From Actinomycetospora cinnamomea (GTDB taxonomy: Bacteria > Actinomycetota > Actinomycetes > Mycobacteriales > Pseudonocardiaceae), in assembly GCF_003096675.1 (NCBI RefSeq), contig NZ_QEKW01000002.1:248001-312000 (forward strand): DNA of 64,000 nucleotides, written 5' to 3'. Below, piece by piece: positions 10,979 to 43,681 of the stretch. The notes beneath the pieces are model-generated. The model made no database searches, was not told the DNA's origin, and worked only from the letters and a program-made list of their open reading frames with translations. A program made the translations under genes and the position numbers. The first letter of the stretch is position 1. Each line of letters opens with the position of its first letter.

Positions 10979-11872
10979 GTGACCGCACCGACCGCCACCA
11001 GCCCGGACGACCTCGCGCGCGCCCTCGACGAGACCGGCTACCTCGCCGATGCGGGCCTGGCGTCGGCGGCCTTCCTCGCCCTGCGCATGGGCCGGCCGCT
11101 GTTCTGCGAGGGCGAGCCGGGCACCGGCAAGACCGCGCTGGCGCAGGCGCTGTCCGAGGCGCTGGGTCTGCCGCTCGTGCGGCTGCAGTGCCACGAGGGC
11201 ATCGACGCGGCGCAGGCGCTCTACGACTGGGACTTCCCGCGCCAGCTGCTGCACCTGCGCGCGCTGGAGGCCGCGGCGAGCGCGTCGCACACCGAGCTCG
11301 ACGTCGACGCCGTCGAGTCCTCCCTCTACGACCGTCGCTTCCTGCTCGCGCGCCCGGTGCTGCAGGCCATCCAGGAGGCGCCCTGCGTGCTGCTCGTCGA
11401 CGAGGTCGACCGGGCCGACGACGAGTTCGAGGCCTTCCTGCTCGAGGTGCTCGCCGAGAACTCGGTCACGATCCCGGAGGTCGGGGTCGTCAAGGCCGCG
11501 ACGCCGCCGCTCGTGGTGCTGACGTCCAACCGCACGCGCGAGGTGCACGACGCCCTCAAGCGCCGCTGCCTCTACCTCTGGCTCGAGCACCCCGACCTCG
11601 CCCGCGAGACCGCGATCCTGCGCCGCCGCCTGCCCGACCTGCCCGAGGAGCTCGCGGCCCAGGTCGCGCAGGCCGTGCAGGGGCTCCGTGGGCTGGACCT
11701 GCTCAAGCCGCCCGGGGTCGCCGAGTCGATCGACTGGGCGCAGGCCCTGCAGCTCGTCGGCGCCCGCCGGCTCGACCTCGCCTCGGCGACGGCCACGCTC
11801 GGCGCGGTGCTGAAGTACCGCGAGGACGCCGACCGGGCCCGCGACAAGCTGGACGCCCTGCTCGCGTCATGA
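10979..11872 (+). CDS. MoxR-family AAA+ ATPase, CoxD-like
   Basis: A 297-residue MoxR AAA+ ATPase with Walker A GEPGTGKT at residues 45-52, Walker B VLLVDEVDRADDE near 138, sensor-1 VLTSNRTRE and an arginine-finger region LKRRCLYLWLEHP. MoxR ATPases act with VWA-domain partners as chaperones that insert metals or cofactors. CoxD of the CO dehydrogenase system is the closest functional model, because coxE-like and coxF/xdhC-like genes follow. The GTG at 10979 is the first start giving a normal length; an ATG at 10968 closes at once. The stop overlaps the next ATG by 4 bp. The Cox large, medium and small subunits are absent from the window. Confidence 0.88.
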   Translation: MTAPTATSPDDLARALDETGYLADAGLASAAFLALRMGRPLFCEGEPGTGKTALAQALSEALGLPLVRLQCHEGIDAAQALYDWDFPRQLLHLRALEAAASASHTELDVDAVESSLYDRRFLLARPVLQAIQEAPCVLLVDEVDRADDEFEAFLLEVLAENSVTIPEVGVVKAATPPLVVLTSNRTREVHDALKRRCLYLWLEHPDLARETAILRRRLPDLPEELAAQVAQAVQGLRGLDLLKPPGVAESIDWAQALQLVGARRLDLASATATLGAVLKYREDADRARDKLDALLAS

Positions 11873-13005
11873 CCGCCGCCGCGCCACCGGACGGTGACGC
11901 CGTCCTCTCGGACTTCGTCGCCTTCACCCGCCTCGTCCGCAACGCCGGCGTCCCGGTCACCACCGACCGTGTCGCGGCCTACCTGCAGGCGCTGCGCCTC
12001 TCCGACCTCGCCAGCGAGGTCGCCACCTACTGGGCCGGGCGCCTGACGCTGTGCGCCGACCCCGACGACGTCGCGCGCTACGACCACGCGTTCGCCGCGT
12101 GGTTCTCCGCCGACCCGCGCGACCAGCGCATGGGCCGCCCGGCGCCGCCCAAACCGCGCATCTCGACGATGGCCGCGCTCACCGACCCGCCGCCGGGATC
12201 GGGCGCCGACGGCGACGAGGAGACCCCGGAGCTGCGCGTCGCGGCCTCGGGGGAGGAGATCCTGCGCGACCGCGACATCGCCGAGCTCTCGATCGGCGAG
12301 CGCGAGCACCTCAGGCAGCTGCTGGCGCTGCTGCGTCCCGCCCCGCCGCGGCGCCGCGCTCGGCGCCGGGGCCCGGCCCGCCGCGGCGAGCCGGACCCGC
12401 GGGCCACGCTGCGCGCGGCGCTGGCCAACGGCGGCGAGATCGGCGACCTGCGCCGCCGCGCGCGCCGGGTGCGCCCGCGCCGGGTCGTGCTGCTCATCGA
12501 CGTGTCCGGCTCGATGAGCCCGTACGCCGACACCCTGCTGCGCTTCGCCCACGTCGTCACCCGCCGCACGCCGAGCGCGGTGGAGACGTTCACGCTCGGC
12601 ACCCGGCTGACCCGCGTGACCCGCGAGCTGCGCCAGCGCGACCCGGAACGGGCGCTGGCCGACGCCGGCCGCGCGATCCCGGACTGGTCGGGCGGCACCC
12701 GGCTCGGCGAGGTGCTGCGCGCGTTCCTCGACCGCTGGGGCCAGCGCGGCGTCGCCCGCCGGGCCGCGGTCGTCGTCTTCTCCGACGGCTGGGAGCGCGG
12801 GGGTGCCGACCTGCTCGGCGAGCAGGCGGCGCGGCTCGCGCGCCTGGCGCACTCGGTGGTCTGGGTCAACCCGCACGCCGGCAAGAGCGGCTACGCGCCC
12901 GTGCAGGGGGGAATCGCGGCCGCCCTCCCGCACGTTGACCGGTTGCTGGCGGGTCACTCGCTGGCCACGTTGGCGGAACTGCTGGAGGTGCTGCGGGATG
13001 CGTGA
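11869..13005 (+). CDS. VWA domain protein, CoxE-like
   Basis: A 378-residue CoxE-type VWA protein, the usual partner of the MoxR ATPase before it. The N-terminal helical half (~1-150) is followed by an Arg-rich stretch (RRRARRRGPARRG) and a C-terminal VWA domain with an intact metal-ion-dependent adhesion site, DVSGSMS, at residues 211-217 and SGGTRLGEV further on. In the oligotropha-type CO dehydrogenase system CoxD and CoxE work together in assembling the Cu/Mo centre. The start overlaps the ATPase stop and its own end overlaps the XdhC-like gene by 8 bp, so the three proteins are made together. Confidence 0.88.
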   Translation: MTAAAPPDGDAVLSDFVAFTRLVRNAGVPVTTDRVAAYLQALRLSDLASEVATYWAGRLTLCADPDDVARYDHAFAAWFSADPRDQRMGRPAPPKPRISTMAALTDPPPGSGADGDEETPELRVAASGEEILRDRDIAELSIGEREHLRQLLALLRPAPPRRRARRRGPARRGEPDPRATLRAALANGGEIGDLRRRARRVRPRRVVLLIDVSGSMSPYADTLLRFAHVVTRRTPSAVETFTLGTRLTRVTRELRQRDPERALADAGRAIPDWSGGTRLGEVLRAFLDRWGQRGVARRAAVVVFSDGWERGGADLLGEQAARLARLAHSVVWVNPHAGKSGYAPVQGGIAAALPHVDRLLAGHSLATLAELLEVLRDA

Positions 13006-19813: not shown

Positions 19814-21118
19814 GTGGTCCTCGTCGACAGCGTGACCCGCGCGGGGGACTCGGTCATCGCGCGCCGCCGCCCCGAGGAGGCCCCGGTCGACGCGACCGTC
19901 TCCCCGACGCGGCGCCCGGCCGACCGGGCCGCGAGCCGTCCGCGCGCCGCCACGCCGCGGCTCGCGAAGTTCCACGTGCCGGAGATCCTCTTCGGGCCGG
20001 GGTCGCTGCCCGAGGCCGCGCACGCCGCGGTGCGCCTGGGCGCGCGGCGCCCGCTGCTCGTCACCGACCCCGGGCTCGTGGACGCCGGGTGGCCGGCACA
20101 GCTGTGCGCCCACCTCGCCGACGCCGGACTGCGCGCGTCGGTGTGGGACGGCGTCACGCCCAACCCGAAGGACCACGAGATCGCCGCGGGGCACCTGGCC
20201 TACCTCGAGCAGCGCTGCGACGTGATCGTCGCGCTCGGCGGCGGCTCGGTGATCGACGCGGCCAAGGGCATCGCGCTGCTCGCCGGCAACGGCGGCACCA
20301 TCCTCGACTACGAGGGCGTCGACCGGATGGCCCTGCCCATCCCGCCGCTGGTGATGGTGCCCTCGACCTCGGGCACCGGCGCCGACGTCTCGCAGTTCTG
20401 CATCGTCACCGACACCCGGCGCAACACCAAGATCACGATCCTGGGCCGCGCGCTGGTGCCCGACGTCTCGGTGGTCGACCCCCACCTGCTGGTCACCATG
20501 CCCGACTGGCTGAACGCGGCCACGGGGCTCGACGCGCTCACCCACGGCATCGAGGCCTACGTCTCCCGGGCGCACAACCCGTTGACCGACCACCACGCGC
20601 TGCAGGCCATCGCCCTGGTCGGCGAGCACCTCGAGCGCACGATGGACCACCCGTCCGAGGAGGCCGCGCGCACCTGCATGGCGCAGGCCGCCCTCGAGGC
20701 GGGGCTCGCGTTCACCAACGCGATCCTCGGGGCCGCCCACGCGATGAGCCACCAGGTCGGTGGCCTGCTCGACCTGCCGCACGGCGTCATCAACGGCGTG
20801 CTCCTGCCGCACGTGATCCGTTTCAACGCCGAGCCGGACCCCCACCGCTTCGTCCCGATCGCGCAGGCGCTGGGTCTGCCCGGCGACATCACGCCGGACT
20901 CGACGGCCGGCGCCGCGGAGGCCGCCGAGTGGGCCGCGTGCGAGGTCCGCCGCCTCGCCGACGAGCTCGGCGTGCCGAAGGGCCTGGGCGAGATCGGTGT
21001 CACCGAGTCCGACGTCGGGCTGCTCTCGGCGATGACGCTGGCCGACGCGTGCCTGTCGACCAACCCGCGCGAAGCAGACCAGGCCGACATCGAGACGCTG
21101 TTCCGGGCGGCGCTGTAG
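19814..21118 (+). CDS. Iron-containing alcohol dehydrogenase, ErcA-like
   Basis: A 434-residue group III alcohol dehydrogenase. The NAD-binding LGGGSVIDAAKG is at 141-152, and the four metal ligands fit the family spacing exactly: Asp240, His244, His309 and His323. The first ~50 residues are an Arg/Pro-rich extension absent from typical members. The gene leads a three-gene unit with a GAF histidine kinase and a LuxR-type response regulator, resembling the ErcA-ErcS organisation in which the dehydrogenase has a regulatory role in alcohol oxidation. A TAACGT element lies at 19777-19782, with GAGAAGGGGG before the GTG. It is only distantly like the Mno-type enzyme at 38519-39811. Confidence 0.88.
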   Translation: MVLVDSVTRAGDSVIARRRPEEAPVDATVSPTRRPADRAASRPRAATPRLAKFHVPEILFGPGSLPEAAHAAVRLGARRPLLVTDPGLVDAGWPAQLCAHLADAGLRASVWDGVTPNPKDHEIAAGHLAYLEQRCDVIVALGGGSVIDAAKGIALLAGNGGTILDYEGVDRMALPIPPLVMVPSTSGTGADVSQFCIVTDTRRNTKITILGRALVPDVSVVDPHLLVTMPDWLNAATGLDALTHGIEAYVSRAHNPLTDHHALQAIALVGEHLERTMDHPSEEAARTCMAQAALEAGLAFTNAILGAAHAMSHQVGGLLDLPHGVINGVLLPHVIRFNAEPDPHRFVPIAQALGLPGDITPDSTAGAAEAAEWAACEVRRLADELGVPKGLGEIGVTESDVGLLSAMTLADACLSTNPREADQADIETLFRAAL

Positions 21119-31818: not shown

Positions 31819-33075
31819 GTGGAGCCGACACGGGGCGCCGGGACGCGCGCGGAGCCGTCCACGGCACGCCGCGTGGCCTTCGTGGTCGTCGCGTACTCGT
31901 TCGTGGTCACCATGCTCGGTACCACCCTGCCGACGCCGCTCTACCCCATCTACCAGGAGCGATACGGCTACAGCGGCCTGCTCGTCACGGTCATCTTCGC
32001 CGCGTACGCCGTCGGTGTGATCGCCGCGCTCCTCCTGCTGGGGCGCCTGTCGGACCAGATCGGCCGTCGACCGGTGCTGCTCCTCGGGCTCGGCCTCTCG
32101 GCGCTGTCGGCGGTCGCGTTCCTGGCCCCGCTCCCTGCCCCGCTGGACCTGCCGGGCCTGTTCGTCGGTCGCGTGCTCTCCGGGCTCTCGGCCGGGGTGT
32201 ACACGGGCACGGCGACGGCGACGCTGCTCGACCTCGTGCCCGACGAGGGCCGCGCCCGCGCCTCGCTGGTGGGCGCGGCGGTGAACATGGGCGGCCTGGG
32301 GCTCGGGCCCGTCGTCGCCGGTGTGCTGGCGCAGTACGCCCCGGCGCCGCTGGCGCTGCCCTACGTCGCCTCGCTCCTGCTGCTCGTGCCCGCCGCGGTC
32401 GGCGTCGCGCTGATCCCCGAGCCGGTGCCGGGTGCGGGCGGGTGGCGCGGGGCGAGCCTGCGCCCGCAGCGGCTGCGCGTCCCCGCGGCGGCGCGCCCGG
32501 TGTTCGTGCGCGCGGTGATCGCCGGGTTCGCGGGGTTCGCGGTGCTCGGCCTGTTCACGTCGGTGTCGCCGTCGTTCCTGGGCGAGGTGCTCGACATCCG
32601 CGACCACGCCGTCGAGGGTCTGGTCGTGTTCTCGTTGCTGGCCGCGTCGACGGTCGGGCAGCTGGCGTCGGCGCGCCTGGGCGAGCGGACGTCGCTGGTC
32701 GGGGGTTCGGCGGTGCTCGGGGTGGGGGCGCTCGGCATCGCGCTGGCGCTGCTGCTCGCGTCGCTGCCGGTGCTCGTGGCCGCCGCGGTGGTGGCCGGGC
32801 TCGGCCAGGGCGCGAGCTTCCGGGCGGGCCTCGGCGCGGTCGGCGCGGCGAGCCCCGCCGAACAGCGCGCCGAGGTGTCCTCGAGCTTCTTCGTGGTCGT
32901 CTACGTCGCCCTGTCGGTGCCGGTCATCGGCGTCGGGGCGGCCGCGCAGGGCTTCGGTCTCACGACCGCGGGCGTGGTGTTCTCGGTCGCCGTGGCGGTC
33001 CTCGCCGCGGTGGCGGTCGGGGCGCTGCTGCGCCGAACAGACCATCAGGGTTCGGACGCGATCCCGAGTGATTGA
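31819..33075 (+). CDS. MFS transporter
   Basis: A 418-residue 12-helix major facilitator with motif A GRLSDQIGRRPVLL between helices 2 and 3 and DEGRARASLVGAAVNMGG. The N-terminal ~20 residues are hydrophilic. The leaderless GTG at 31819 is preferred over longer upstream starts. The frame ends in a polar tail, and the stop lies 85 bp before the NOS start. The substrate is unknown. Being directly upstream of the NOS gene, it could handle arginine, nitrite or a NOS-related metabolite, but that is only a position argument. Confidence 0.85.
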   Translation: MEPTRGAGTRAEPSTARRVAFVVVAYSFVVTMLGTTLPTPLYPIYQERYGYSGLLVTVIFAAYAVGVIAALLLLGRLSDQIGRRPVLLLGLGLSALSAVAFLAPLPAPLDLPGLFVGRVLSGLSAGVYTGTATATLLDLVPDEGRARASLVGAAVNMGGLGLGPVVAGVLAQYAPAPLALPYVASLLLLVPAAVGVALIPEPVPGAGGWRGASLRPQRLRVPAAARPVFVRAVIAGFAGFAVLGLFTSVSPSFLGEVLDIRDHAVEGLVVFSLLAASTVGQLASARLGERTSLVGGSAVLGVGALGIALALLLASLPVLVAAAVVAGLGQGASFRAGLGAVGAASPAEQRAEVSSSFFVVVYVALSVPVIGVGAAAQGFGLTTAGVVFSVAVAVLAAVAVGALLRRTDHQGSDAIPSD

Positions 33076-33160
33076 TCCGAACGGCGAGATCCGCTCCCGG
33101 CGACGGGGCGGCACAGTGGGTACCGCGCCGCACGGGACGGCACGACGACTCGGAGGTGGC

Positions 33161-34495
33161 ATGACGCGCGGCGTGGCGATCGACGTCGTCGGCACCGGGG
33201 ACCAGCTGGTCCCCACCCCGCATCCGCGGGACGGCCGGCCCCGTCCCGGACCCCGGGTCCCCACCCCCGTCGCCGCCGGCGACCCGGTGGTGCCCACCGA
33301 CAACCCCCCGCCCTCGCCGCGCGAGGGTGACGACGACGCGCCGGCGACCCCGGAGGCCGGGCCCACCGCGGTGCGGGGTGTCGACCCCGACGAGGCCGAG
33401 GAGTTCCTCCGGCTCTTCCACACCGAGAACCCGGCGTCGGGGCCGGTCGAGCCGCGGATCGTCGCGGTCCGTGAGGAGATCGACCGCACCGGCACCTACG
33501 TCCACACCCACGACGAGCTCGAGTTCGGGGCGCGGGTGGCCTGGCGGAGCTCCGCGCGCTGCATCGGGCGGCTCTACTGGCGCAGCCTGCACCTGCGCGA
33601 CCGGCGGCACGTCACCGCGCCCGAGGAGGTCGCCGCCGAGTGCGTAGGCCACCTGCGCGAGGCCACGCGTCGCGGGCGCATCCGCTCCACCATCACGATC
33701 TTCGCGCCCGACGGCCCGTCCGGCCCGGGACCGCGGGTGTGGAACGAGCAGCTGATCCGCTACGCCGGCTACCGCGCCGGCGGGCGGGTGCTCGGCGACC
33801 CGCGCTACGTCGGGTTCACCGACACCGCCCGCTCGCTGGGCTGGCTGCCGCCGAGCCCGATGGGGCGCTTCGACGTCCTCCCGCTCGTCGTCACCGGCGG
33901 CGGGGAGCACGCCGCGGCCGGTCCGCAGGTGCACGAGGTGCCCCGCGATGCGGTGATGGAGGTGGACCTGCACCACCCCGAGCACGCGTGGTTCGCCGAG
34001 CTGGGCCTGCGCTGGCACGCGCTGCCCGTCATCAGCAACATGCGTCTCGACATCGGCGGCATCTCCTACCCGGCGGCGCCGTTCAACGGCTGGTACATGG
34101 CCACCGAGATCAGCGCGCGCAACCTGGCCGACGCCGACCGCTACGACATGCTCGCCGAGGTCGCCGACGCCATGGCGCTCGACACCTCCAGCGACCGCAC
34201 GCTGTGGCGCGACCGCGCGGCCATCGAGCTCACCGCCGCGGTCCAGCACTCCTTCGACGAGGCCGGCGTCTCCCTCGCCGATCACCACGGCGAGTCGCAG
34301 CGCTTCCTGCGTTTCGTGGAGAAGGAGGAGGCGGCCGGGCGCCACTGCCCCGTCGACTGGAGCTGGATCGTCCCGCCGATCTCCGGCGGCCTCACCCCGG
34401 TGTTCCACCGGTACTACGACGAGCCCACCGACACCGGCCCGATGTTCCGCCTCGACGACCAGGCCAAGGCGCGTGGGCGGGGGTGCCCGGTCTGA
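33161..34495 (+). CDS. nos: Bacterial nitric oxide synthase oxygenase
   Basis: A 444-residue NOS oxygenase domain protein that oxidises L-arginine to citrulline and NO. The heme-ligand motif WRSSARCIGRLYW carries Cys134, and the substrate-binding helix FNGWYMATEISARN has the Arg-binding Glu. The region from about residue 75 (DPDEAEEFLRLFH) matches the family; residues 1-70 are a Pro-rich extension not seen in typical Bacillus enzymes. The reductase domain is missing, as in other bacterial NOSs, so electrons must come from a separate flavoprotein. The ATG at 33161 has GGAGG 5-6 nt upstream. A family-1 repeat follows the stop. Confidence 0.95.
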   Translation: MTRGVAIDVVGTGDQLVPTPHPRDGRPRPGPRVPTPVAAGDPVVPTDNPPPSPREGDDDAPATPEAGPTAVRGVDPDEAEEFLRLFHTENPASGPVEPRIVAVREEIDRTGTYVHTHDELEFGARVAWRSSARCIGRLYWRSLHLRDRRHVTAPEEVAAECVGHLREATRRGRIRSTITIFAPDGPSGPGPRVWNEQLIRYAGYRAGGRVLGDPRYVGFTDTARSLGWLPPSPMGRFDVLPLVVTGGGEHAAAGPQVHEVPRDAVMEVDLHHPEHAWFAELGLRWHALPVISNMRLDIGGISYPAAPFNGWYMATEISARNLADADRYDMLAEVADAMALDTSSDRTLWRDRAAIELTAAVQHSFDEAGVSLADHHGESQRFLRFVEKEEAAGRHCPVDWSWIVPPISGGLTPVFHRYYDEPTDTGPMFRLDDQAKARGRGCPV

Positions 34496-34579: not shown

Positions 34580-35521
34580 TCAGCCCACCTCGACCACGAG
34601 CCAGCCGCCGTGGTCGTCGGCGACGGTGAAGGGGCGGCCGGAGCGCTCGCCGAGGGCGTGCAGGGCGGCGTGGTCGAAGGTCCTCAGGTGCCCGTACACG
34701 GGCTCGGGGACGTCCTCGTAGGGCACGGCGACCACGACGCGGCGCCGGGCGACGCGGAGCATCTCGTCGAGCACGGGGACGGTGTCGGCCGCGGGCAGGT
34801 GCTCGAGCAGGTGCACCGCGGTGACGGTGTCCACGGAGCGGTCGGCGGCGGGCAGGGTGCGGGCGTCGGCGACGACGGTGCGCACGGGCTCGCCGCGGCG
34901 GCGGGCGACGGCGCCGAGCAGGCCCATCGTCCCCGGCGTGTGGTCGGTGGCGACGACCTCGAACCCCTCCTGCGCCAGCCGCAGCGGCAGGAAGCCGAAG
35001 CACGAGCCGACGTCGAGCACCGTCCGCCCGCGGAGCTCGGAGAGAACGCGCTCGTGGACCGGGGCGAACGCCGCCAGCGACGACTCCGGGGCCACCGTCG
35101 GGTCGACGGGGTGCGCCGGTGAGCGCAGCGCGGCGAGGCTGTTGGCGTAGAACGTCGACCACGCCGTCAGCGGGTCGCTGATGGTCGAGCGGACGACGCC
35201 GGTGAACACCCGCTCGAAGTCGCCGGCCGACGCGACGAGGCCGGAGAGCTCGCCGGCGATGAGCCCGGCGATGTCGTCGTCGAGCTCGTCGGGGCGCAGC
35301 CGGTGCAGCACGAGCAGCCGGTCGCCGGGCAGGTGGACCTCGAAGTGCTCGGTGACGCGCTCGGGCGGGCGGGCCGCGACCAGGCGCACGGGGACGGGCG
35401 CGCGGTCGACGTGACACACGACCACCCGGGCGTCCTCCCAGCGCCCGGGGTGCGACGGGGCGAGCGGGTCGATGCGCACGGTGCCCGCAGTGCCCGCGGG
35501 GACGTCGCGGACGCCGGTCAC
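34580..35521 (-). CDS. SAM-dependent methyltransferase, probable mycofactocin methyltransferase MftM
   Basis: A 313-residue class I methyltransferase with SAM motif VLDVGSCFGFLPL near residue 165 and acidic residue in VVATDHTPG. An N-terminal region of ~120 residues (TVRIDPLAP, LRPDELDDDIAGLIAGEL, FERVFTGVVRSTISDP) resembles, from memory, the MftM family that methylates the mycofactocin oligoglucoside. It follows the VWA gene by 19 nt and shares its strand with moxR and mno, which fits a mycofactocin-related role. Specific MftM identity is a family-memory call without an alignment; a generic methyltransferase is the alternative. Confidence 0.6.
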   Translation of the reverse strand: MTGVRDVPAGTAGTVRIDPLAPSHPGRWEDARVVVCHVDRAPVPVRLVAARPPERVTEHFEVHLPGDRLLVLHRLRPDELDDDIAGLIAGELSGLVASAGDFERVFTGVVRSTISDPLTAWSTFYANSLAALRSPAHPVDPTVAPESSLAAFAPVHERVLSELRGRTVLDVGSCFGFLPLRLAQEGFEVVATDHTPGTMGLLGAVARRRGEPVRTVVADARTLPAADRSVDTVTAVHLLEHLPAADTVPVLDEMLRVARRRVVVAVPYEDVPEPVYGHLRTFDHAALHALGERSGRPFTVADDHGGWLVVEVG

Positions 35522-35540
35522 GGCGGACCCCCACCCACCC

Positions 35541-37088
35541 TCATCGCCCGATCATCTCGGCCGCCATGTCGTGGCTGACCTCGGAGAGTCCGGTGAGGTC
35601 GCGCACGACCCGGATGCGGTCGCAGTACTCGGCGTAGCGCGGCAGGTCGCACGCCCCGAGCCCCCAGGAGTAGCGCGGCTCCGGGGTCAGCCAGATCGTC
35701 TCGCGGGCCCGGCGGGTGATCTCGGCGAACGCGTCGGTGTTCGGGTCGTTGCCGTTGCCCCGCCCGTCGCCCAGCACGATCACGGTCGAGCGGCGGTTCA
35801 CCGCCGACCCGTGGTCTTCGAGGAAGGTCCCGAACGACGTCCCGTAGTCGGAGTTGGCGTCGACGTCGAGCAGGTCGCCGCCGAAGATCAGGCCGAGGGC
35901 GTCCTCGACGGTGTGGTCGGCGAACAGGTCGGTGACCTCCATGAGGTCGGCGACGAACGCGAACGAGCGCACCTGCCCGAACATGTCCTGCAGCCCGTGG
36001 ACCAGGTGCAGGGTGAACCGCGCGGTGGCGCGCACCGACAGCGAGACGTCGGCGAGGATCACCAGCCGCGGCTTGTCCTCGGTGCGCGCGACCGTCACGG
36101 GCCGGAACGGGACGCCGTCGAAGCGCATGTTGCGCCGCATCGTGCGGCCGGGGTCGATGCGCCCGCGCGGCGACTCGCGGCGCTTGTGGGTCAGGGCGCC
36201 GTGCAGCGTCTTGGCCAGCCGGCGCAGCGAGTCCTCGAGCTGCTGGCGCTCGTGCTCCTCGGCCCGGTCGACCTCGGCGCGCCGGGCGTCCTCGCCGCCC
36301 GTCCCGTCGTCGACGATGCGCTGCTCGATCTCGAGCAGCCGCTCGAGGTGGCGCTTGATGGCCTCCGGGAGGTTCTCCAGCATCCCGGCCAGGCGGCGTC
36401 GCAGCGCCATGGCGTCGGTCTCGTCTCCGGCGGCGCCCTCGGCGTCCTCCTCGACGCCCTGCAGCCACCCCAGCAGCGCCTCCTGCTGAGCGACGTTGAG
36501 GTCGGCGTCGACCTTCGTGCCCGATGCGGCGGCGATGTCGCCGGGCAGGCCGCCGCCGTGCAGACGGTCGGTCTCGATCTGCACCTTCTCGCCGGTGCCG
36601 GTCTGGTCGGTGGCCCCGTCCTTGGAGAAGACGATCTCGTCGGTCATCGCGGCCAGGTCGATCTTGTTGGCCTCCTGGTGCAGGTTGTACTGCTGGGCCA
36701 TGTCCTCGGGGTCGAAGAACTCCTTGATGTCGACGGGCGTGCCGTGGTCGTGGCCCTGCTGGGGGGTCTCGCTCGGCTCCTCGGACAGCGTGAAGTCCTC
36801 GAGGACGCCGTCGTCGGACAGGTCCTCGTGCCCGTGCCCGTGGCCGTGGCCCCGGTCCTCGGCGCCGATGCGCACCAGCGCGAAGAACGCGTCGAAGATC
36901 TCGTCGTAGGTGTGCTCGTCGCGGATGTCCTTGACGAGCGCCACGCGCAGCGCGGCCTTGAGCGTCTCGCGGTCGGCGAGCACCCCGGGCTCACGCGCGC
37001 AGCGCATCGCGTCGAGGACCTCGGAGGTGGAGATCCGCACCTGACGGATGCGGAGCAGGCGGACGAAGCGGTGGATGCTGGCCTCCAC
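35541..37088 (-). CDS. VWA-domain protein of the methanol dehydrogenase operon, His-rich insert
   Basis: A 515-residue CoxE-like VWA protein. The N-terminal helical region (~1-75) is followed by a His-Gly segment (RGHGHGHGHEDLSDD) and a second short His stretch (QQGHDHGTP). A long charged coiled-coil-like part runs ~215-320. The C-terminal VWA domain has a metal-ion site in ILADVSLSVRATA, with Ser replacing the usual Gly (DVSLS instead of DxSGS). It follows the MoxR gene by 24 nt. Together they look like an AAA+/VWA chaperone pair for the methanol dehydrogenase upstream. The His-Gly runs in both proteins suggest metal binding, which is inferred. Confidence 0.85.
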   Translation of the reverse strand: MEASIHRFVRLLRIRQVRISTSEVLDAMRCAREPGVLADRETLKAALRVALVKDIRDEHTYDEIFDAFFALVRIGAEDRGHGHGHGHEDLSDDGVLEDFTLSEEPSETPQQGHDHGTPVDIKEFFDPEDMAQQYNLHQEANKIDLAAMTDEIVFSKDGATDQTGTGEKVQIETDRLHGGGLPGDIAAASGTKVDADLNVAQQEALLGWLQGVEEDAEGAAGDETDAMALRRRLAGMLENLPEAIKRHLERLLEIEQRIVDDGTGGEDARRAEVDRAEEHERQQLEDSLRRLAKTLHGALTHKRRESPRGRIDPGRTMRRNMRFDGVPFRPVTVARTEDKPRLVILADVSLSVRATARFTLHLVHGLQDMFGQVRSFAFVADLMEVTDLFADHTVEDALGLIFGGDLLDVDANSDYGTSFGTFLEDHGSAVNRRSTVIVLGDGRGNGNDPNTDAFAEITRRARETIWLTPEPRYSWGLGACDLPRYAEYCDRIRVVRDLTGLSEVSHDMAAEMIGR

Positions 37089-37112
37089 GCGGGCCTCCTC
37101 TCGCGGTCGGCG

Positions 37113-38408
37113 CTACAGCGCGCGGCGCTTGCCGAGACCGGCGCCGAACGAGCGGCTGCCCTGGCCCGAGCTGACCGGGCGCTTCTTGGCCGGCTCGGCC
37201 TCGCCGGAGCGCGCCTTCTCCTGGTACTCGCGCCCCGGCGCGCCGTAGACACCGGCGTGGCGGCCCTCCTGGTCCTTCGCCGCGCGCACGGCCCGGCCGT
37301 CGGGGCCGTCGTCGGCGTCGTCGTCGACGCGGCGGGACGTGGCCGGCGCCGGACCCGCGGAGTGGCCGTCGTCGTGGCCGTGCCCGTGGCCGTGCCCGTG
37401 GCCGTGGCCGTGGCCGTGGTCGTCGATCTCGGCGTTCGGGTCCACGAGCTTCGGCAGCGCGCCGAGGGCCTTGGTGACGTCCTTGTCGTACTTCACGACG
37501 ACGCTCACGGTGTCCGACAGGATCGAGCTCGACAGCTCGTCCACGCCCAGCACGGCCAGCGTCCGGGCCCAGTCGATCGTCTCGGAGATGCTCGGCGCCT
37601 TGCGCAGCTCGAGCTCGCGCAGCCCGCGCACCACCTCGACCAGCTCGCGCGCGGCGGCCTCGGGGAGCCCGGTGCCCTTCGAGCGCACGATCTCCAGCTC
37701 GCGCTCGGCGGTCGGGTAGTCGAGGAACAGGTGCAGGCAGCGACGCTTCAGGGCGGCGGCCAGGTCGCGCGTGTTGTTGCTGGTCAGGATGACGTAGGGC
37801 GCGTTCTTGGCCGAGAACGTGCCGACCTCCGGGACCGAGATCTGGTACTCGCCGAGGGTCTCGAGCAGCACCGCCTCCAACGCCTCGTCGGCGCGGTCGA
37901 CCTCGTCGATGAGCAGCACGACCGGCTCGTCGGAGCGGATGGCCTCCATCAGCGGGCGCTCGGCGAGGAACTCCTCGGAGAAGAAGACGCTGTCCTGCGC
38001 CGCGATGCGCTCGACCGAGGTCTTGATGTCGGGGGCGTCCTGGACGATCTCACTGATCTTCTCGCGCAGCATCTGGGTGTAGAGCAGCTGCTTGCCGTAG
38101 TCCCACTCGTAGAGGGCCTTGGTCTCGTCCTGGCCCTCGTAGCACTGCAGGCGCAGGAAGCGCCGGCCCGTCGCGAGCGCGAGCATCTTGGCCAGCTCGG
38201 TCTTTCCGACGCCGGCCGGGCCCTCGAGCAGCAGCGGCTTCTCGAGACGGGTGAGCAGGAAGACGGTGGTCGCGAGGCGGCGGTCCGCGATGTAGCCCTG
38301 CGCGGCGAGCGCGTCGACGACCTCGTCGACCGATCCGAACGGGAAGTCCTCGTCTCCCGAGCCTCCGCACGGGGAGTGGTCGGTCGCGGTGTCGACGGTC
38401 GTGCTCAC
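37113..38408 (-). CDS. MoxR-family AAA+ ATPase with C-terminal His-Gly repeat
   Basis: A 431-residue MoxR ATPase. Walker A GPAGVGKT is at 63-70 and Walker B VVLLIDEVDRADEA near 165, with sensor-1 VILTSNNTRD. The last ~110 residues are an unusual extension: a run of nine HG pairs (about 320-337), then acidic and basic low-complexity sequence ending GSRSFGAGLGKRRAL. The GTG at 38408 fits the family length. The gene is separated from mno by a strong hairpin. A second MoxR-VWA pair is at 10979-13005. The His-Gly run could bind Zn, Mg or Fe for delivery to Mno. Confidence 0.88.
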   Translation of the reverse strand: MSTTVDTATDHSPCGGSGDEDFPFGSVDEVVDALAAQGYIADRRLATTVFLLTRLEKPLLLEGPAGVGKTELAKMLALATGRRFLRLQCYEGQDETKALYEWDYGKQLLYTQMLREKISEIVQDAPDIKTSVERIAAQDSVFFSEEFLAERPLMEAIRSDEPVVLLIDEVDRADEALEAVLLETLGEYQISVPEVGTFSAKNAPYVILTSNNTRDLAAALKRRCLHLFLDYPTAERELEIVRSKGTGLPEAAARELVEVVRGLRELELRKAPSISETIDWARTLAVLGVDELSSSILSDTVSVVVKYDKDVTKALGALPKLVDPNAEIDDHGHGHGHGHGHGHGHDDGHSAGPAPATSRRVDDDADDGPDGRAVRAAKDQEGRHAGVYGAPGREYQEKARSGEAEPAKKRPVSSGQGSRSFGAGLGKRRAL

Positions 38409-38473
38409 GCGGGGGTGTCCTCTCTGGAGGTGCCGGGCCGGCCGGGCGGTCCCGGCCGGAGGTGCGGGACGCA

Positions 38474-38512
38474 CCGGGGCCCGGCGGAGGACTTCCCTCC
38501 GCCGGGCCCCGG
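38474..38512 (-). terminator. Strong hairpin between mno and moxR
   Basis: A perfect 15-bp stem, GGGGCCCGGCGGAGG (38476-38490) pairing with CCTCCGCCGGGCCCC (38496-38510), extended by one or two pairs on the outside, with a 5-nt loop. It lies 7-45 bp beyond the mno stop. It should end most mno transcripts, with limited read-through into moxR. Confidence 0.85.
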
Positions 38513-38518
38513 GACGCG

Positions 38519-39811
38519 TCAGCTCAGCAGGTCGTCGAGGTCACCGTTGAGGCAGTGGTCGACGACGGGGCGCACCGTCGTGAAGGTGCACTCCTTGGGG
38601 TTGCCGGGGGTGCAGGCGTCCCCGAGGACGTGGTTGGTGATGCGGTCCACGTCGGCGTCGTTGCCCGTGATGGTCTTCTCGTTCTCGTAGAACTTCGTCG
38701 GGCCCTTGCCCAGGCGGTTCTTGGAGTACGAGTCCTGGGTGACGTCGGTGAACTTCTCCGGGATGCCCACGTCGCGCAGCAGGCGGATGGACGCGGCGAG
38801 CGCGGCCTCCGCGGCCTGGACGTCGGTCATGTGCGTGGTGTCCACGCCCATGGCCTGGGCGATGCGCGCGAAGCGCTTGTAGGCCACCGGCATGTTGAAC
38901 GCCCACACGCGGGGCAGCGCGACGGCGTTGTTCAGGCCGTGGTGGGTGTCGTAGAACGCCGACACCGCGTGCGAGATCGAGTGGATGATCCCGAGGCCAC
39001 CGGAGTTGAAGGCCTGCGCGGCGATGTACTGCGCGTACATCATGCCCTGCCGGCCGGGGAGGTCCTGGCCGTTCCAGACTGCCTCGCGCAGGTGGTTGTT
39101 GGTCAGCTCGATGGCGTGCAGGGCGTTGCCCAGGCTCGGCTCGAAGTTGAGCCGCGAGACGTAGGGCTCGGAGGCGTGTGCGAGCACGTCGAAACCGCAC
39201 TGCGCGGTGAAGTCGACCGGGCAGTCGTAGTAGAGCACCGGGTCGTCGATCGCCAGGCTGGTGACCGAGGCGTCGTCGAACGCGACGTACTTGTGCGGTT
39301 TGTTCGGGTCGGTCGTGGTGTCGGTGATGACGTAGGCCCACGACGTCTCCGAGCCGGTGCCGGCCGTCGTCGAGACCGCGATGTGCGGCGGGTTCTTCGG
39401 GTTCTCGGACTGGTTGAAGCCCTCGAACTCGTTGACGTTGCGGCCGTCGTGGGCCACCGAGACGCGGGCGCCCTTGCAGGCGTCGTGCGAGGAGCCGCCG
39501 CCGATGGAGACGAAGCTGTCACAGGAGTTCTCCTGGTACAGCTTCACCGAGTCCATGACGTTGTAGTCCTTGGGGTTGGACTCGACCTGGTCGTAGATGA
39601 CCGTCTCGATCCCGTGCCACTTCATGGACTCGGAGATCTTGTGGACGATGTCCGTGCCGCGCAGACCCGAGGTCATGATCAGCGTCTTCTTGAAGCCCAT
39701 CTTCAGGGCCTCGGGGCCGATCATCTCGTGCGAGCCGGGCCCCAGCAGCGCCCGAGGGAACGGGTGGAATTCCTTGATCGGGAACGGCTTGAGCAGCTCG
39801 TCTACCTGCAT
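38519..39811 (-). CDS. mno: NDMA-type (nicotinoprotein) methanol dehydrogenase
   Basis: A 430-residue group III alcohol dehydrogenase of the actinobacterial Mno/MDO type, which oxidises methanol with tightly bound NAD(P)H and passes electrons to a mycofactocin-type carrier. IGGGSSHDACKG is at 103-114, and the metal ligands Asp208, His212, His277 and His291 keep the family spacing (4, 65, 14). The Asn-, Lys- and Tyr-rich composition (WAYVITDTTTDPNKPHKY) differs from the Arg/Ala-rich neighbours, as expected for a highly expressed enzyme. A TAGCGT element lies at 39869-39874 (minus strand), with GAGAGGA before the ATG. It is co-directional with moxR, vwa and the methyltransferase, and next to the mft locus. 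Confidence 0.92.
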   Translation of the reverse strand: MQVDELLKPFPIKEFHPFPRALLGPGSHEMIGPEALKMGFKKTLIMTSGLRGTDIVHKISESMKWHGIETVIYDQVESNPKDYNVMDSVKLYQENSCDSFVSIGGGSSHDACKGARVSVAHDGRNVNEFEGFNQSENPKNPPHIAVSTTAGTGSETSWAYVITDTTTDPNKPHKYVAFDDASVTSLAIDDPVLYYDCPVDFTAQCGFDVLAHASEPYVSRLNFEPSLGNALHAIELTNNHLREAVWNGQDLPGRQGMMYAQYIAAQAFNSGGLGIIHSISHAVSAFYDTHHGLNNAVALPRVWAFNMPVAYKRFARIAQAMGVDTTHMTDVQAAEAALAASIRLLRDVGIPEKFTDVTQDSYSKNRLGKGPTKFYENEKTITGNDADVDRITNHVLGDACTPGNPKECTFTTVRPVVDHCLNGDLDDLLS

Positions 39812-40928: not shown

Positions 40929-41291
40929 CTACTTCTCGGCCAGGGCCGCGCGGGCCAGGTCCAGCGCGCGTTCGGGCGAGACGCCGAGGGCGGTGACGCG
41001 GCGGGCGTACTCCGCCGCCAGCTCGCGGGCCGGGTCGGCGGCCGCGTCCGCGCCGACGACGAACGTGCCCAGCCGCCCGCGGGTCTCGACGACGCCCGCG
41101 GCCTCGAGCTCGCGGTAGGCGCGGGCGACCGTGCCGGGGGCGAGGTTCAGGTCGGTCGCGAGCCGGCGGACCGCGGGCAGGCGCGTGTGCGGGGCCAGCT
41201 CGCCGGTCCGGGCGAGCTCGGTGATCCGCGCGCGCAGCTACTCGTAGGGCGGGTCGGTCGAGTCGGGGTCGAGGTCGATCAGCTCGCTCAC
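40929..41291 (-). pseudogene. GntR/YtrA-type regulator interrupted by an in-frame TAG
   Basis: The minus-strand frame encodes a 120-residue GntR/YtrA-type regulator: MSELIDLDPDSTDPPYE, then a stop at codon 18 (TAG, 41238-41240), then LRARITELARTGELAPHT and a winged helix (LNLAPGTVARAYRELEAAG) to the normal end. Relatives usually read PPYEQL at this place, so a single C-to-T change of CAG to TAG explains the stop. The start overlaps the mftR stop by 4 bp (GTGA), and no later ATG or GTG precedes the helix-turn-helix. A sequencing error or amber read-through cannot be ruled out; otherwise the gene is inactive. Confidence 0.85.
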
Positions 41292-41872
41292 CGCGCCGAG
41301 AACCCCCGGGCGAGCAGGTCGAACGCCTCGTCCACCAGCCCGCCGAGCGCGGCGGCGTCGGCCTCCGGACGCGCGTGCCAGGCGCTGAACACCGCGCGCA
41401 TCGAGGCCACCACGGCGCGCCCGAACACCTGCGCGCGCAGCGACCCGGCGTCGACGTCCCAGCGGCGCGCGGCGTCGCCGGCCAGCGCGGACTCCCAGTC
41501 GCGGTAGCGGACGGTGGCGCGGGCGGCGAGCTCGGGCACGTCCTCGATGAGCCCGAGGCGCCGGCGCAGGGCGGGCAGCTCGCCGTCGGCGTAGCGGTTG
41601 ACCGCGAGGAACGCCGCGCGGGCCGCGGCCACGGGGTCGGCGCCGGGCTGCGTGGCCAGCGCAACGACGAGCGCGGCCAGTCCTTCATCGAGCTCGCCGA
41701 GCACCACGTCGAGCTTCGTGGGGAAGTACCGGAAGAACGTGCGCCGGCCGACCCCGCCGGCCGAGGCGAGCTCGTCGACGGTCGTCTCGTCGAACCCCTG
41801 GGTCGCGAACAGCTCCAGCGCGACGTGCTCGAGGCGCCGGGCGACCGGCGCCCGGCGCGCGCTCCTCGTCAC
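41288..41872 (-). CDS. mftR: TetR-family regulator, mycofactocin-type MftR
   Basis: A 194-residue TetR-family repressor. The N-terminal helix-turn-helix includes RRLEHVALELFATQGFDETT and GVGRRTFFRYFPTK, and a helical ligand-binding part follows with RRRLGLIEDVPELAARA. In mycofactocin loci MftR represses the mft genes and responds to long-chain acyl-CoA. It is divergent from mftA with an operator-like dyad (GGCACCGAGTGCC) in the shared promoter. The GTG at 41872 is the start matching the family length; 41875 is equally possible. Its stop overlaps the broken GntR gene, suggesting both were once co-expressed. Confidence 0.88.
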   Translation of the reverse strand: MTRSARRAPVARRLEHVALELFATQGFDETTVDELASAGGVGRRTFFRYFPTKLDVVLGELDEGLAALVVALATQPGADPVAAARAAFLAVNRYADGELPALRRRLGLIEDVPELAARATVRYRDWESALAGDAARRWDVDAGSLRAQVFGRAVVASMRAVFSAWHARPEADAAALGGLVDEAFDLLARGFSAR

Positions 41873-41958
41873 CACACCAGCATCCCCTACCAAGTCGTCG
41901 TCGTGCCCACCCCCACCGAACGGAGGGGCGGGTCCCGCCCGGTGAGCGTGTGGTGGGT

Positions 41959-41980
41959 GGCACCGAGTGCCGCTTAGCGT
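41959..41980 (+). promoter_or_regulatory. mftA promoter with operator-like dyad
   Basis: GGCAC-CGA-GTGCC (41959-41971) lies just before TAGCGT (41975-41980), the likely -10 of mftA, about 38 nt from the ATG. A repressor bound here would block transcription. MftR is the natural candidate. Confidence 0.6.
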
Positions 41981-42018
41981 TCGCAGCGCCCGAGGCACCC
42001 GCAGGTGAGGAGGACGCG

Positions 42019-42114
42019 ATGGAGATCAAGGACGAGCACGCCGACAGGGAGCAGCTGGTGGAGGAGACCCTCGTCGAGGAGGTCTCGATCGACGGCATGT
42101 GCGGCGTCTACTGA
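42019..42114 (+). CDS. mftA: Mycofactocin precursor peptide MftA
   Basis: A 31-residue peptide ending in the canonical mycofactocin precursor tail, EEVSIDGMCGVY. The last two residues, Val30 and Tyr31, are the substrate: MftC decarboxylates Tyr and crosslinks it to Val. The N-terminal leader (MEIKDEHADREQLVEETL) is acidic and binds MftB. Ribosome-binding site GTGAGGAGG lies 5 nt upstream of the ATG. The stop overlaps the mftB ATG (TGATG). The gene is short enough to be missed in routine annotation. Confidence 0.97.
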   Translation: MEIKDEHADREQLVEETLVEEVSIDGMCGVY

Positions 42115-42458
42115 TGTCGACGACGGCGGCGGGGGCCGGCCCGCAGGGTCAGATCTCGGGCTCAGCCCCCGCCGGCGTCGGTGACTTCGACGCCGGCCGG
42201 CCGTACCGGATCTCCGGTTCGGTGTCGGTGCGACCGGAGTCGTTCGGCGCCCTCGTCTACGACTTCCACACGCGGCGGCTGTCGTTCCTCAAGACCCGCC
42301 CGCTCGTCCGGGTCGTCGAGTCCCTCGCCGACCACCCCGACGTCCATGGCGCCCTCGAGGCCGCCGAGGTCCCTGCACACCAGCGGGAGCAGTACCTGAA
42401 GGCCCTCGCCGGCCTCGCGCAGGCGGGGACGATCAAGCCCCGGGAGGACGCGCCATGA
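42114..42458 (+). CDS. mftB: Mycofactocin peptide chaperone MftB
   Basis: A 114-residue RiPP recognition protein that holds the MftA leader and presents it to MftC. The pattern RPYRISGSVSVRPESFGALVYD is followed by RRLSFLKTRPLVRVVESL and a final alpha-helical part (HQREQYLKALAGLAQAG). The first ~25 residues are a Ala/Gly-rich extension. The ATG overlaps the mftA stop by 1 nt and its own stop overlaps mftC by 4 bp, so the three are made together. Confidence 0.95.
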   Translation: MSTTAAGAGPQGQISGSAPAGVGDFDAGRPYRISGSVSVRPESFGALVYDFHTRRLSFLKTRPLVRVVESLADHPDVHGALEAAEVPAHQREQYLKALAGLAQAGTIKPREDAP

Positions 42459-43681
42459 AGCTCGTCGAACACTTCACCCACGGCCTGAACTCCCCGATCT
42501 GCCTGACCTGGGAGCTCACCTACGCCTGCAACCTGTCCTGCGTGCACTGCCTGAGCTCCTCCGGCCGCCGCGACCCCCGCGAGCTGTCGACCGAGGAGTG
42601 CAAGGCGGTCATCGACGAGCTGCAGCGGATGCAGGTCTTCTACGTCAACATCGGCGGCGGCGAGCCGACGGTGCGCAGCGACTTCTGGGAGCTGCTGGAC
42701 TACGCGATCGCCCACGACGTCGGCGTGAAGTTCTCCACCAACGGGGTCAAGCTCGACAAGGCTCGCGCCGCGCAGCTCGCGGCCACCGACTACGTCGACG
42801 TCCAGATCTCCCTCGACGGCGCGACGGCCGAGGTCAACGACCACGTCCGCGGCCCCGGCTCGTACGCCACCGCGATCCGGGCGATGGAGAACCTGTACGA
42901 GGCGGGCTTCGGCCAGTTCAAGATCAGCGTGGTGGTGACCCGCCACAACGTCGACCAGCTCGACGACTTCAAGGCCATCGCCGACCGCTACGGCGCCCAG
43001 CTGCGGATCACCCGCTTCCGCCCGTCGGGGCGCGGCGCCGACTCGTGGGACGAGCTGCACCCCACCCGCGAGCAGCAGCGCCAGCTCTACGACTGGCTCG
43101 TCGCCCGCGGCGAGGACGTCCTGACCGGTGACTCGTTCTTCCACCTCTCCGCGTACGGCCAGGAGCTGCCGGGGCTCAACCTGTGCGGGGCCGGGCGCGT
43201 GGTGTGCCTGATCGACCCGGTGGGCGACGTCTACGCCTGCCCGTTCGCCATCCACGACCAGTTCCTCGCGGGCAACGTCCGCTCGCCGGGCGGCTTCGAC
43301 ACGGTGTGGAAGTCCTCCGAGCTGTTCGCCGAGCTGCGCGGACCGCAGTCGGGCGGGGCGTGCACGAAGTGCTCGCACTACGACGCCTGCCAGGGCGGGT
43401 GCATGGCGGCCAAGTTCTTCACCGGCCTGCCGCTCGACGGCCCCGACCCGGAGTGCGTGCTCGGCAACGGCGAGCGGGAGCTGGCCAAGCTCCAGGTGGA
43501 CGGTGATCCGCAGCGGGTCATCCCCAAGCCGTCGCTGGACCACTCGCACCGCACGACGCCGCGGGATCGCCGCGAGCCGGTCCCGCTGACGCTGTCGGTG
43601 CGCCGACCCGACCGGGCGTGCGACTCCGACCCCCTCGGCGGCGAGGGCACCCGCCTGCCCGCCGGCATCCGGGTCGGCTGA
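42455..43681 (+). CDS. mftC: Mycofactocin radical SAM maturase MftC
   Basis: A 408-residue radical SAM enzyme with a SPASM domain. The SAM cluster motif is CNLSCVHC (Cys25, Cys29, Cys32), the SAM-binding glycines are in GGGEPTVRSDF, and the auxiliary-cluster cysteines lie in YACPFAIHD, CTKCSHYDACQGGC and the last Cys near 343. MftC catalyses oxidative decarboxylation of the MftA tyrosine and ring formation with valine. The last ~50 residues (from SHRTTPRDRRE) are a charged tail beyond the usual end. The gene ends before a strong terminator; mftD, mftE and mftF do not follow. Confidence 0.96.
   Translation: MKLVEHFTHGLNSPICLTWELTYACNLSCVHCLSSSGRRDPRELSTEECKAVIDELQRMQVFYVNIGGGEPTVRSDFWELLDYAIAHDVGVKFSTNGVKLDKARAAQLAATDYVDVQISLDGATAEVNDHVRGPGSYATAIRAMENLYEAGFGQFKISVVVTRHNVDQLDDFKAIADRYGAQLRITRFRPSGRGADSWDELHPTREQQRQLYDWLVARGEDVLTGDSFFHLSAYGQELPGLNLCGAGRVVCLIDPVGDVYACPFAIHDQFLAGNVRSPGGFDTVWKSSELFAELRGPQSGGACTKCSHYDACQGGCMAAKFFTGLPLDGPDPECVLGNGERELAKLQVDGDPQRVIPKPSLDHSHRTTPRDRREPVPLTLSVRRPDRACDSDPLGGEGTRLPAGIRVG

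Follow-up and report, generated by a model that had tools for sequence, protein, structure and literature searches.

Background

Why should the gene for a methanol dehydrogenase be followed by genes for a MoxR-family AAA+ ATPase and a von Willebrand factor A (VWA) protein, both carrying histidine-rich segments? The question is raised by a stretch of 64,000 nt of Actinomycetospora cinnamomea DNA (contig positions 248,001 to 312,000, G000:C2 in our set; genome size 5.97 Mb), hereafter the window. In it mno, or mdo, which encodes an N,N-dimethyl-4-nitrosoaniline (NDMA)-dependent methanol dehydrogenase of the mycofactocin type, is adjoined on the minus strand by the genes for the MoxR ATPase, the VWA protein and a methyltransferase, in that order. 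A preliminary description of this DNA gave the same order with correct coordinates, to which we add the name of the methyltransferase, MftM, and proposed that the pair is a dedicated metal-loading chaperone. Here we document the linkage of the pair to mno, the specificity and conservation of its histidine segments and the identity of the families involved; these sequence comparisons lend good support to a chaperone pair that is dedicated to Mno and probably binds metal. The best explanation of its function, on which our judgement is evenly poised, is that a dedicated AAA+ remodelling machine would act on dehydrogenases with captive NAD(P), and that the pair beside mno would add metal handling to this activity.

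Mno belongs to a metal-dependent enzyme family and needs a metal. In M. smegmatis the mno operon comprises msmeg_6242-6238, of which 6239 is a putative 1,3-propanediol dehydrogenase and the regulators are MnoSR (6238, 6236), according to one study (PMC11303327); another reports that growth on ethanol requires MSMEG_6242 (PMC6529628). Judged by the gene order on a Tsukamurella plasmid, 6241 and 6240 would be the MoxR and VWA genes. The occurrence of a MoxR/VWA pair beside mno was partly anticipated by the NCBI models MadB (NF047784) and MadC (NF047783); the paper behind these names was not found in the literature searched. No paper joining mycofactocin, an ATPase and a VWA protein was found there either, although this literature lies mostly outside subscription journals and absence is thus unproven. 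One paper there brings mycofactocin and MoxR together; its title makes it a study of antibiotic resistance and prophages in M. chelonae.

Results and discussion

The MoxR/VWA pair is linked to mno

Two samples of mno loci were inspected. Among 80 named loci, MoxR adjoins mno in 77 (only partially in L069) and a VWA gene is present in 76 (in pieces in L076, where the reading frames are broken). These loci were taken as the top 80 from 360, with a Mno identity to the window of 85% or more, and are therefore biased to close relatives and to the histidine type. The three loci that lack MoxR are two cut by a contig end (L018 and L058) and a second mno copy (L031) in a genome that also has a complete locus (L032); a contig end also cuts L069 at the VWA gene. 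The second sample, 396 evenly drawn genomes, yielded 18 Mno matches above 450 bits and two split ones (G200 and G145), and in 19 of these 20, as judged by eye on the listed rows, MoxR adjoins mno, the exception (G155) being cut by a contig end. Of 99 mno-linked MoxRs, 98 proved to have a VWA gene with them, L113 being the miss. On plasmids, MoxR and VWA stand behind mno in all four regions looked at, out of 56 matching records; the Tsukamurella plasmid has the order mdo, MoxR, VWA, iron-type alcohol dehydrogenase (Fe-ADH), histidine kinase and regulator, and then mftM on the other strand. MoxR and VWA thus follow mno across Actinomycetota, and these counts support the view that the pair is dedicated to Mno.

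Two observations on the surroundings may be recorded here. On plasmids of Mycolicibacterium chubuense NBB4 (L145) and Rhodococcus sp. WAY2 (L147), mdo-MoxR-VWA lies near annotated methane/ammonia monooxygenase subunit genes, and one further stretch (L238, from G464) has at positions 1-606 a mno-type MoxR match of 250 bits, cut by the stretch edge, near mftC and mycofactocin-type short-chain dehydrogenases/reductases (SDRs). Among ten neighbours of three MoxRs not linked to mno (L124, L129 and L142), HD-domain, sigma factor and other genes were seen, with no common enzyme.

Histidine-rich segments are conserved in both partners

The tail of the window MoxR contains the run HGHGHGHGHGHGHGH-DDGH, at residues 353-371 of the listed open reading frame (ORF), the His-rich stretch of which is written HGHGHGHGHGHGHGHDDGH. 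The preliminary description was right that there is a His-Gly run but placed nine HG pairs near residues 320-337; we count seven HG pairs and nine His. The listed start lies inside a hairpin, and a GTG at 38408, 22 codons later and after GAGAGGA, is the likelier true start, which would make the run residues 331-349.

We compared 126 MoxR genes at thresholds that were chosen after inspection of the data. At least four His within 24 tail residues occur in 91 of 99 MoxRs that adjoin mno and in 1 of 27 elsewhere; the lone unlinked case (L111) has a truncated mno at its contig end, and moving it gives 92 of 100 linked MoxRs against 0 of 26 unlinked ones, the latter a non-random set of 20 high-scoring matches (12 from a few related families), three paralogues from the window genome and three met by chance in fetched stretches. 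At the stricter level of at least six His in 24, 84 of 99 linked MoxRs qualify. Among 1431 coding-like ORFs of mno neighbourhoods, picked by codon-position GC and without gene calling, 97 reach at least six His in 24 residues, and 71 of these 97 fall in the 85-member MoxR cluster; by this comparison the enrichment in MoxR exceeds chance.

In the VWA partner the GHGHGHGH motif was correctly described, and six histidines (H83, H85, H87, H113, H115 and H137) are kept in all 28 of the proteins aligned. Four of the six, H113 and H115 included, lie in residues 74-118, with H137 outside; this region is probably a flexible segment that follows an N-terminal helical domain, as seen with low confidence in an AlphaFold2 model (mean predicted local distance difference test score 58, predicted template modelling score 0.42). 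Foldseek matched the model to no PDB entry at E 0.001 or better; phosphosugar isomerases made up most of the top rows, and some VWA domains came lower. The VWA profile found no solved-structure chain at E 0.01. Given the weak model and the lack of a Foldseek match, our structural claims stop at rough domain boundaries. Lack of conservation of the His-Gly segments among relatives, which the preliminary description had named as evidence against its proposal, is not what these alignments and the 92 tails reveal.

Could the runs be neutral repeat expansions in a GC-rich genome? The DNA of the window run is a degenerate 6-bp tandem repeat (37362-37423, 10.3 copies, 83% matches), and another ORF of the window genome has a His-Gly run (in L005, which matches the MoxR query only across that run). 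This account is nevertheless very improbable and already largely refuted. The tails vary in sequence (HGHG, HHHHDHH, HDHDH and others) yet retain His across families, next to residues that include D, E, S and T; the His codons of the 84 strong tails are 675 CAC and 106 CAT; and an uninterrupted series of at least five HG is present in only 48 of the 84. Varied neighbours, the use of both codons and the limited share of long HG runs make simple slippage an unlikely origin. Moreover, the His-rich tail is absent from 26 of 26 unlinked MoxRs, and matching motifs are conserved in the VWA partner. The window itself offers a comparison in its coxD/coxE-like pair at 10979-13005, from which His-Gly runs are absent, as the preliminary description had stated: its MoxR (L003) has zero His in the tail, and the translation of its VWA gene has no His run on reading.

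The tails also differ in length, with a median of 96 residues in mno-linked MoxRs with His and 51 in those without, against 16 in unlinked ones. Behind the His run (window 37113-37361) there are partly conserved motifs, GR..RAAKD.PGRH...YYG and a C-terminal F motif, which were seen in mno-linked MoxRs only and in none of the 26 unlinked ones; the F motif, loosely defined, occurs in 80 of 92 linked MoxRs with His, 3 of 8 linked without His and 0 of 26 unlinked. The motifs are a candidate docking element separate from the His run. Long tails and such an element would also suit a pair that helps the Mno decamer to fold or assemble, with the His segments as pH- or metal-responsive regulatory tails and not as donors. 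We regard this alternative as improbable, because it explains neither the retention of His in both partners nor the presence of similar pairs on dehydrogenases of unrelated folds.

Metal insertion as a possible core activity

The window pair belongs to the class of MoxR proteins with a VWA partner, having the AAA domain PF07728 and an adjoining VWA gene with PF05762. Within this class, NorQ/NorD is also a MoxR ATPase plus VWA partner serving a metalloenzyme. NorQD is reported to drive metal insertion, with the NorD linker essential for it (PMC13036017), and non-haem iron insertion to need NorQ/NorD (PMC9976466); the words 'histidine' and 'His-rich' do not occur in PMC13036017. The MoxR profile matches NorQ chains weakly in sequence (E 5e-7). 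Unlike the window pair, whose operon neighbours are mno and mftM, NorQ/NorD has a membrane NO reductase as its target, and no adjacent NO reductase target places the window pair in that family.

Histidine-rich metallochaperones of the HypB, UreE and CooJ type bind Ni, Zn or Co through a His run and then deliver it, and the mno pair, with its conserved His-rich segments, is by sequence a candidate for such a function. A NorQD-like machine that loads metal into Mno as its core job, with the His segments as a metal reservoir, would accord with the NorQD precedent, with the metal dependence of the Mno family and with the specificity of the His segments to mno-linked MoxRs among those compared. The related decameric Mdh of B. 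methanolicus carries a Zn and 1-2 Mg per subunit (PMC3602061). Three observations nonetheless make this alternative rather unlikely. First, mycobacterial-type mno operons retain MoxR and VWA but without the His tail (L118-L121 and L144), which suggests an auxiliary and not a central role for the His segments. Second, AAA/VWA pairs also stand by mycofactocin SDRs, enzymes that need no catalytic metal. Third, inspection by eye of the first 110 residues revealed no gene for metal transport or metal sensing among the 16 ORF clusters that recur in 14 or more mno loci, and we rejected a metal transporter or sensor as a component of the locus. Of the earlier proposal, a pair dedicated to Mno is therefore supported (77 of 80 named loci), whereas metal loading as its main job is not; metal loading is plausible only as part of the role.

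The mycobacterial-type pair is the one recognised by MadB and MadC, which occupy the same place after mno and have the same two folds as the window pair. The MadB cut-off of 475 bits is passed by the MoxRs of L120 (547) and L121 (545), and the MadC cut-off of 600 by the VWA protein of L121 (792). The window proteins fall below both (MoxR 386 bits, VWA 268 bits) and have the His-rich tail and the linker motifs that MadB/MadC lack.

A second AAA/VWA subfamily accompanies other mycofactocin dehydrogenases

Elsewhere in the window genome, an NDMA-type zinc-ADH gene (G000:C2:183871-184974; TIGR03989, 545 bits, cut-off 440) is followed directly by genes for a MoxR-like AAA protein and a VWA protein (5846-9038 of L148, which is G000:C2:176000-190000). 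This AAA protein is of a different branch, scoring 39 bits against the mno-type MoxR profile. A survey of 246 evenly drawn genomes found TIGR03989 above cut-off in 30 and 25 matches to the second-type AAA in 21. Comparison of the listed rows by eye places 18 of the 25 on the strand of a TIGR03989 gene and no more than 126 bases downstream of it. Four, which are tandem pairs in G051 and G208, stand behind SDRs of the mycofactocin type; one (G099), with a VWA gene, adjoins mftE (TIGR03964, 286 bits, cut-off 172); and for two weak matches (G042, 201 bits; G032, 181 bits) the fetched stretch contained neither a zinc-ADH nor an SDR nor mftC. A plasmid search at E 1e-30 yielded only two records, one from Rhodococcus qingshengii and one from R. 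ruber; in both, MoxR and VWA are annotated beside mycofactocin-coupled SDRs, in R. ruber on the strand opposite the SDR. None of 43 AAA and 26 VWA ORF hits of the second type, some loci being entered twice, has more than four His in 24 residues of the region examined. In some genomes (L254, L255, L263 and L264) the second-type AAA is doubled, or AAA and VWA matches share one open frame behind the dehydrogenase. We consider this recurrent AAA/VWA partner of mycofactocin dehydrogenases a more interesting result than metal loading.

A role of the pair in mycofactocin biosynthesis, and not on the dehydrogenase, was considered and is disfavoured. The plasmids L145-L147 have mno-MoxR-VWA without a mft gene in their annotated stretches (the PLSDB tables being incomplete), and in L259-L262 and L265-L267 a scan of the 12-14 kb around zinc-ADH-AAA-VWA for a single mft gene, mftC, gave no hit. 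On the other side, the G099 pair stands beside mftE with no zinc-ADH or SDR recognised, and mftC is near in L263, L264, L268, L250, L252 and L253.

A proposed remodelling machine for captive-NAD(P) dehydrogenases

MoxR/VWA pairs are ATP motors whose action is to remodel an enzyme. The trait common to the partner enzymes here is captive NAD(P) and not a metal, which favours remodelling of the cofactor site; SDRs of the mycofactocin class are reported to hold non-exchangeable NAD (PMC5264612). Two further kinds of pair in the MoxR/VWA class may be compared. CoxD/CoxE-type pairs, such as MSMEG_0748/0751 and the pair at 10979-13005, likewise combine a CoxE-like VWA protein (PF05762) with a MoxR, but are tied to CO dehydrogenase, and the cox-like copy of the window is without His runs; for MSMEG_0748/0751 of M. 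smegmatis, reciprocal co-immunoprecipitation is reported (PMC12657314). The Rubisco activase CbbQ/CbbO, a MoxR/VWA pair mentioned in the same paper, is an ATP-driven remodeller of an enzyme and our favoured model for the shared function; we infer a like mechanism for the mno pair, whose target differs.

In the explanation that we favour, MoxR and VWA together would be an AAA+ remodelling machine devoted to Mno. Recognition of the Mno oligomer, by presumed subunit contacts, would fall to the VWA protein, and the MoxR ring would spend ATP in straining Mno by way of the VWA linker, so that the enzyme opens for maturation or re-activation. The job shared by such pairs may be to load, free or repair the locked NAD(P) site of dehydrogenases that pass their electrons on to mycofactocin. 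Part of the Mno lineage would have an extra in the His-rich tail of MoxR and the HGHxH and HxH motifs of the VWA linker; these segments may bind a divalent metal and so make more of it available where the active site has been opened, the simplest account being that metal is held close to the site that the motor opens.

A more far-reaching proposal, which we offer tentatively, is that captive-NAD(P) dehydrogenases feeding mycofactocin have an AAA+/VWA activase class of their own, recruited at least twice from the MoxR superfamily, once in the mno-linked branch and once in the zinc-ADH/SDR branch. With ATP these activases would open the locked cofactor site, whether for loading NAD(P), for removing a cofactor that is damaged or dead-end, or for letting mycofactocin in, and part of the Mno branch, with its His-rich tail, would be activase and metal loader in one.

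Several results weigh against the explanation that we favour. In the evenly drawn sample only 12 of 19 mno-linked MoxRs (L111 included, the window excluded) reach the His threshold, and 8 of these 12 pass mainly by a short C-terminal end of the HKHxH type (e.g. HKHAH); those below it are L109, L116 and L118-L122. On a tree of 77 MoxR cores, tails left out, the His label requires four changes and the unlinked label two; independent events are therefore few, and near relatives are not independent support. An AAA gene lies within about 1.5 kb at only 17 of 30 TIGR03989 loci and 6 of 30 SDR (TIGR03971) loci, at one locus per genome, and none was seen in the 16 of 24 AAA-free SDR loci that were refetched with wider flanks. 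The pair is therefore not universal for zinc-ADHs and SDRs.

Organisation of the locus

The features of the locus are collected in Table 1. The window Mno shares 99% identity with the Mno of Actinomycetospora lutea and with that of A. straminea, and its stretches GFDVLAH and HSISH...H resemble the metal-ligand motifs of the Fe-ADH family. The presence of mftR-like, mftB, mftC and mftM genes by mno marks a mycofactocin locus.

Table 1. Coordinates in the window of the mno operon, its neighbours and the comparison pair
Feature	Position	Strand	Evidence or remark
mno/mdo, NDMA-dependent (mycofactocin-type) methanol dehydrogenase, Fe-ADH fold, 430 aa	38519..39811	-	TIGR04266, 672 bits, above cut-off of 625
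Very stable stem-loop, starting at the mno stop codon and ahead of moxR	38468..38520	-	-53.3 kcal/mol, z -6.6
MoxR-family AAA+ ATPase, His-rich C-terminal tail	37113..38474 (listed ORF)	-	PF07728
His-rich segment of MoxR	37362..37418	-	seven HG pairs, nine His
VWA (CoxE-like) partner, 515 aa	35541..37088	-	PF05762, 120 bits
GHGHGHGH motif of VWA, residues 80-87	36828..36851	-	H83, H85 and H87 invariant in 28/28
Second VWA His pair, HDH (H113, H115)	36744..36752	-	invariant in 28/28
mftM, mycofactocin oligosaccharide methyltransferase	34580..35521	-	NF041255, 330 bits, above cut-off of 200
mftR-like TetR regulator	41288..41998	-	TIGR03968, 162 bits, below cut-off of 225; PF17754
mftB	42099..42458	+	TIGR03967, 106 bits, cut-off 33
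mftC, radical SAM maturase	42455..43681	+	TIGR03962, 653 bits, cut-off 265
coxD/coxE-like MoxR/VWA pair for comparison, no His runs, followed by XdhC/CoxI gene	10979..13005	+	

A stem of at least 10 pairs within the first 75 bases 3' of mno recurs, with differing sequences, in 57 of 78 mno loci, and in 53 of the 78 it is longer than in all of 20 shuffles that preserve single-base composition only. The stem-loop may be an attenuator or a stabiliser of the mRNA 3' end, and would probably set the mno mRNA level above that of the chaperone mRNA.

Two other genes of the window may be mentioned. A bacterial nitric oxide synthase oxygenase gene (33068-34495; PF02898, 469 bits) converges on the mno operon, and another Fe-ADH gene lies at 19973-21001 (TIGR04266, 161 bits, below cut-off), its nearest MoxR match being about 8 kb off.

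Conclusions

Mycofactocin enzymes are usually described as a dehydrogenase and a cofactor only. The pair adjacent to mno and the pairs at other mycofactocin enzymes point to an unstudied activation step for this enzyme class. If our explanation is true, the system would offer a soluble and easily assayed example of MoxR/VWA motor action, and, should the His segments load metal, a MoxR machine that visibly carries a metal store of its own. It could also explain the trouble met in moving mycofactocin enzymes into other hosts. An ATP-driven, gene-linked partner on three unrelated folds would then be the missing activation step of these dehydrogenases.

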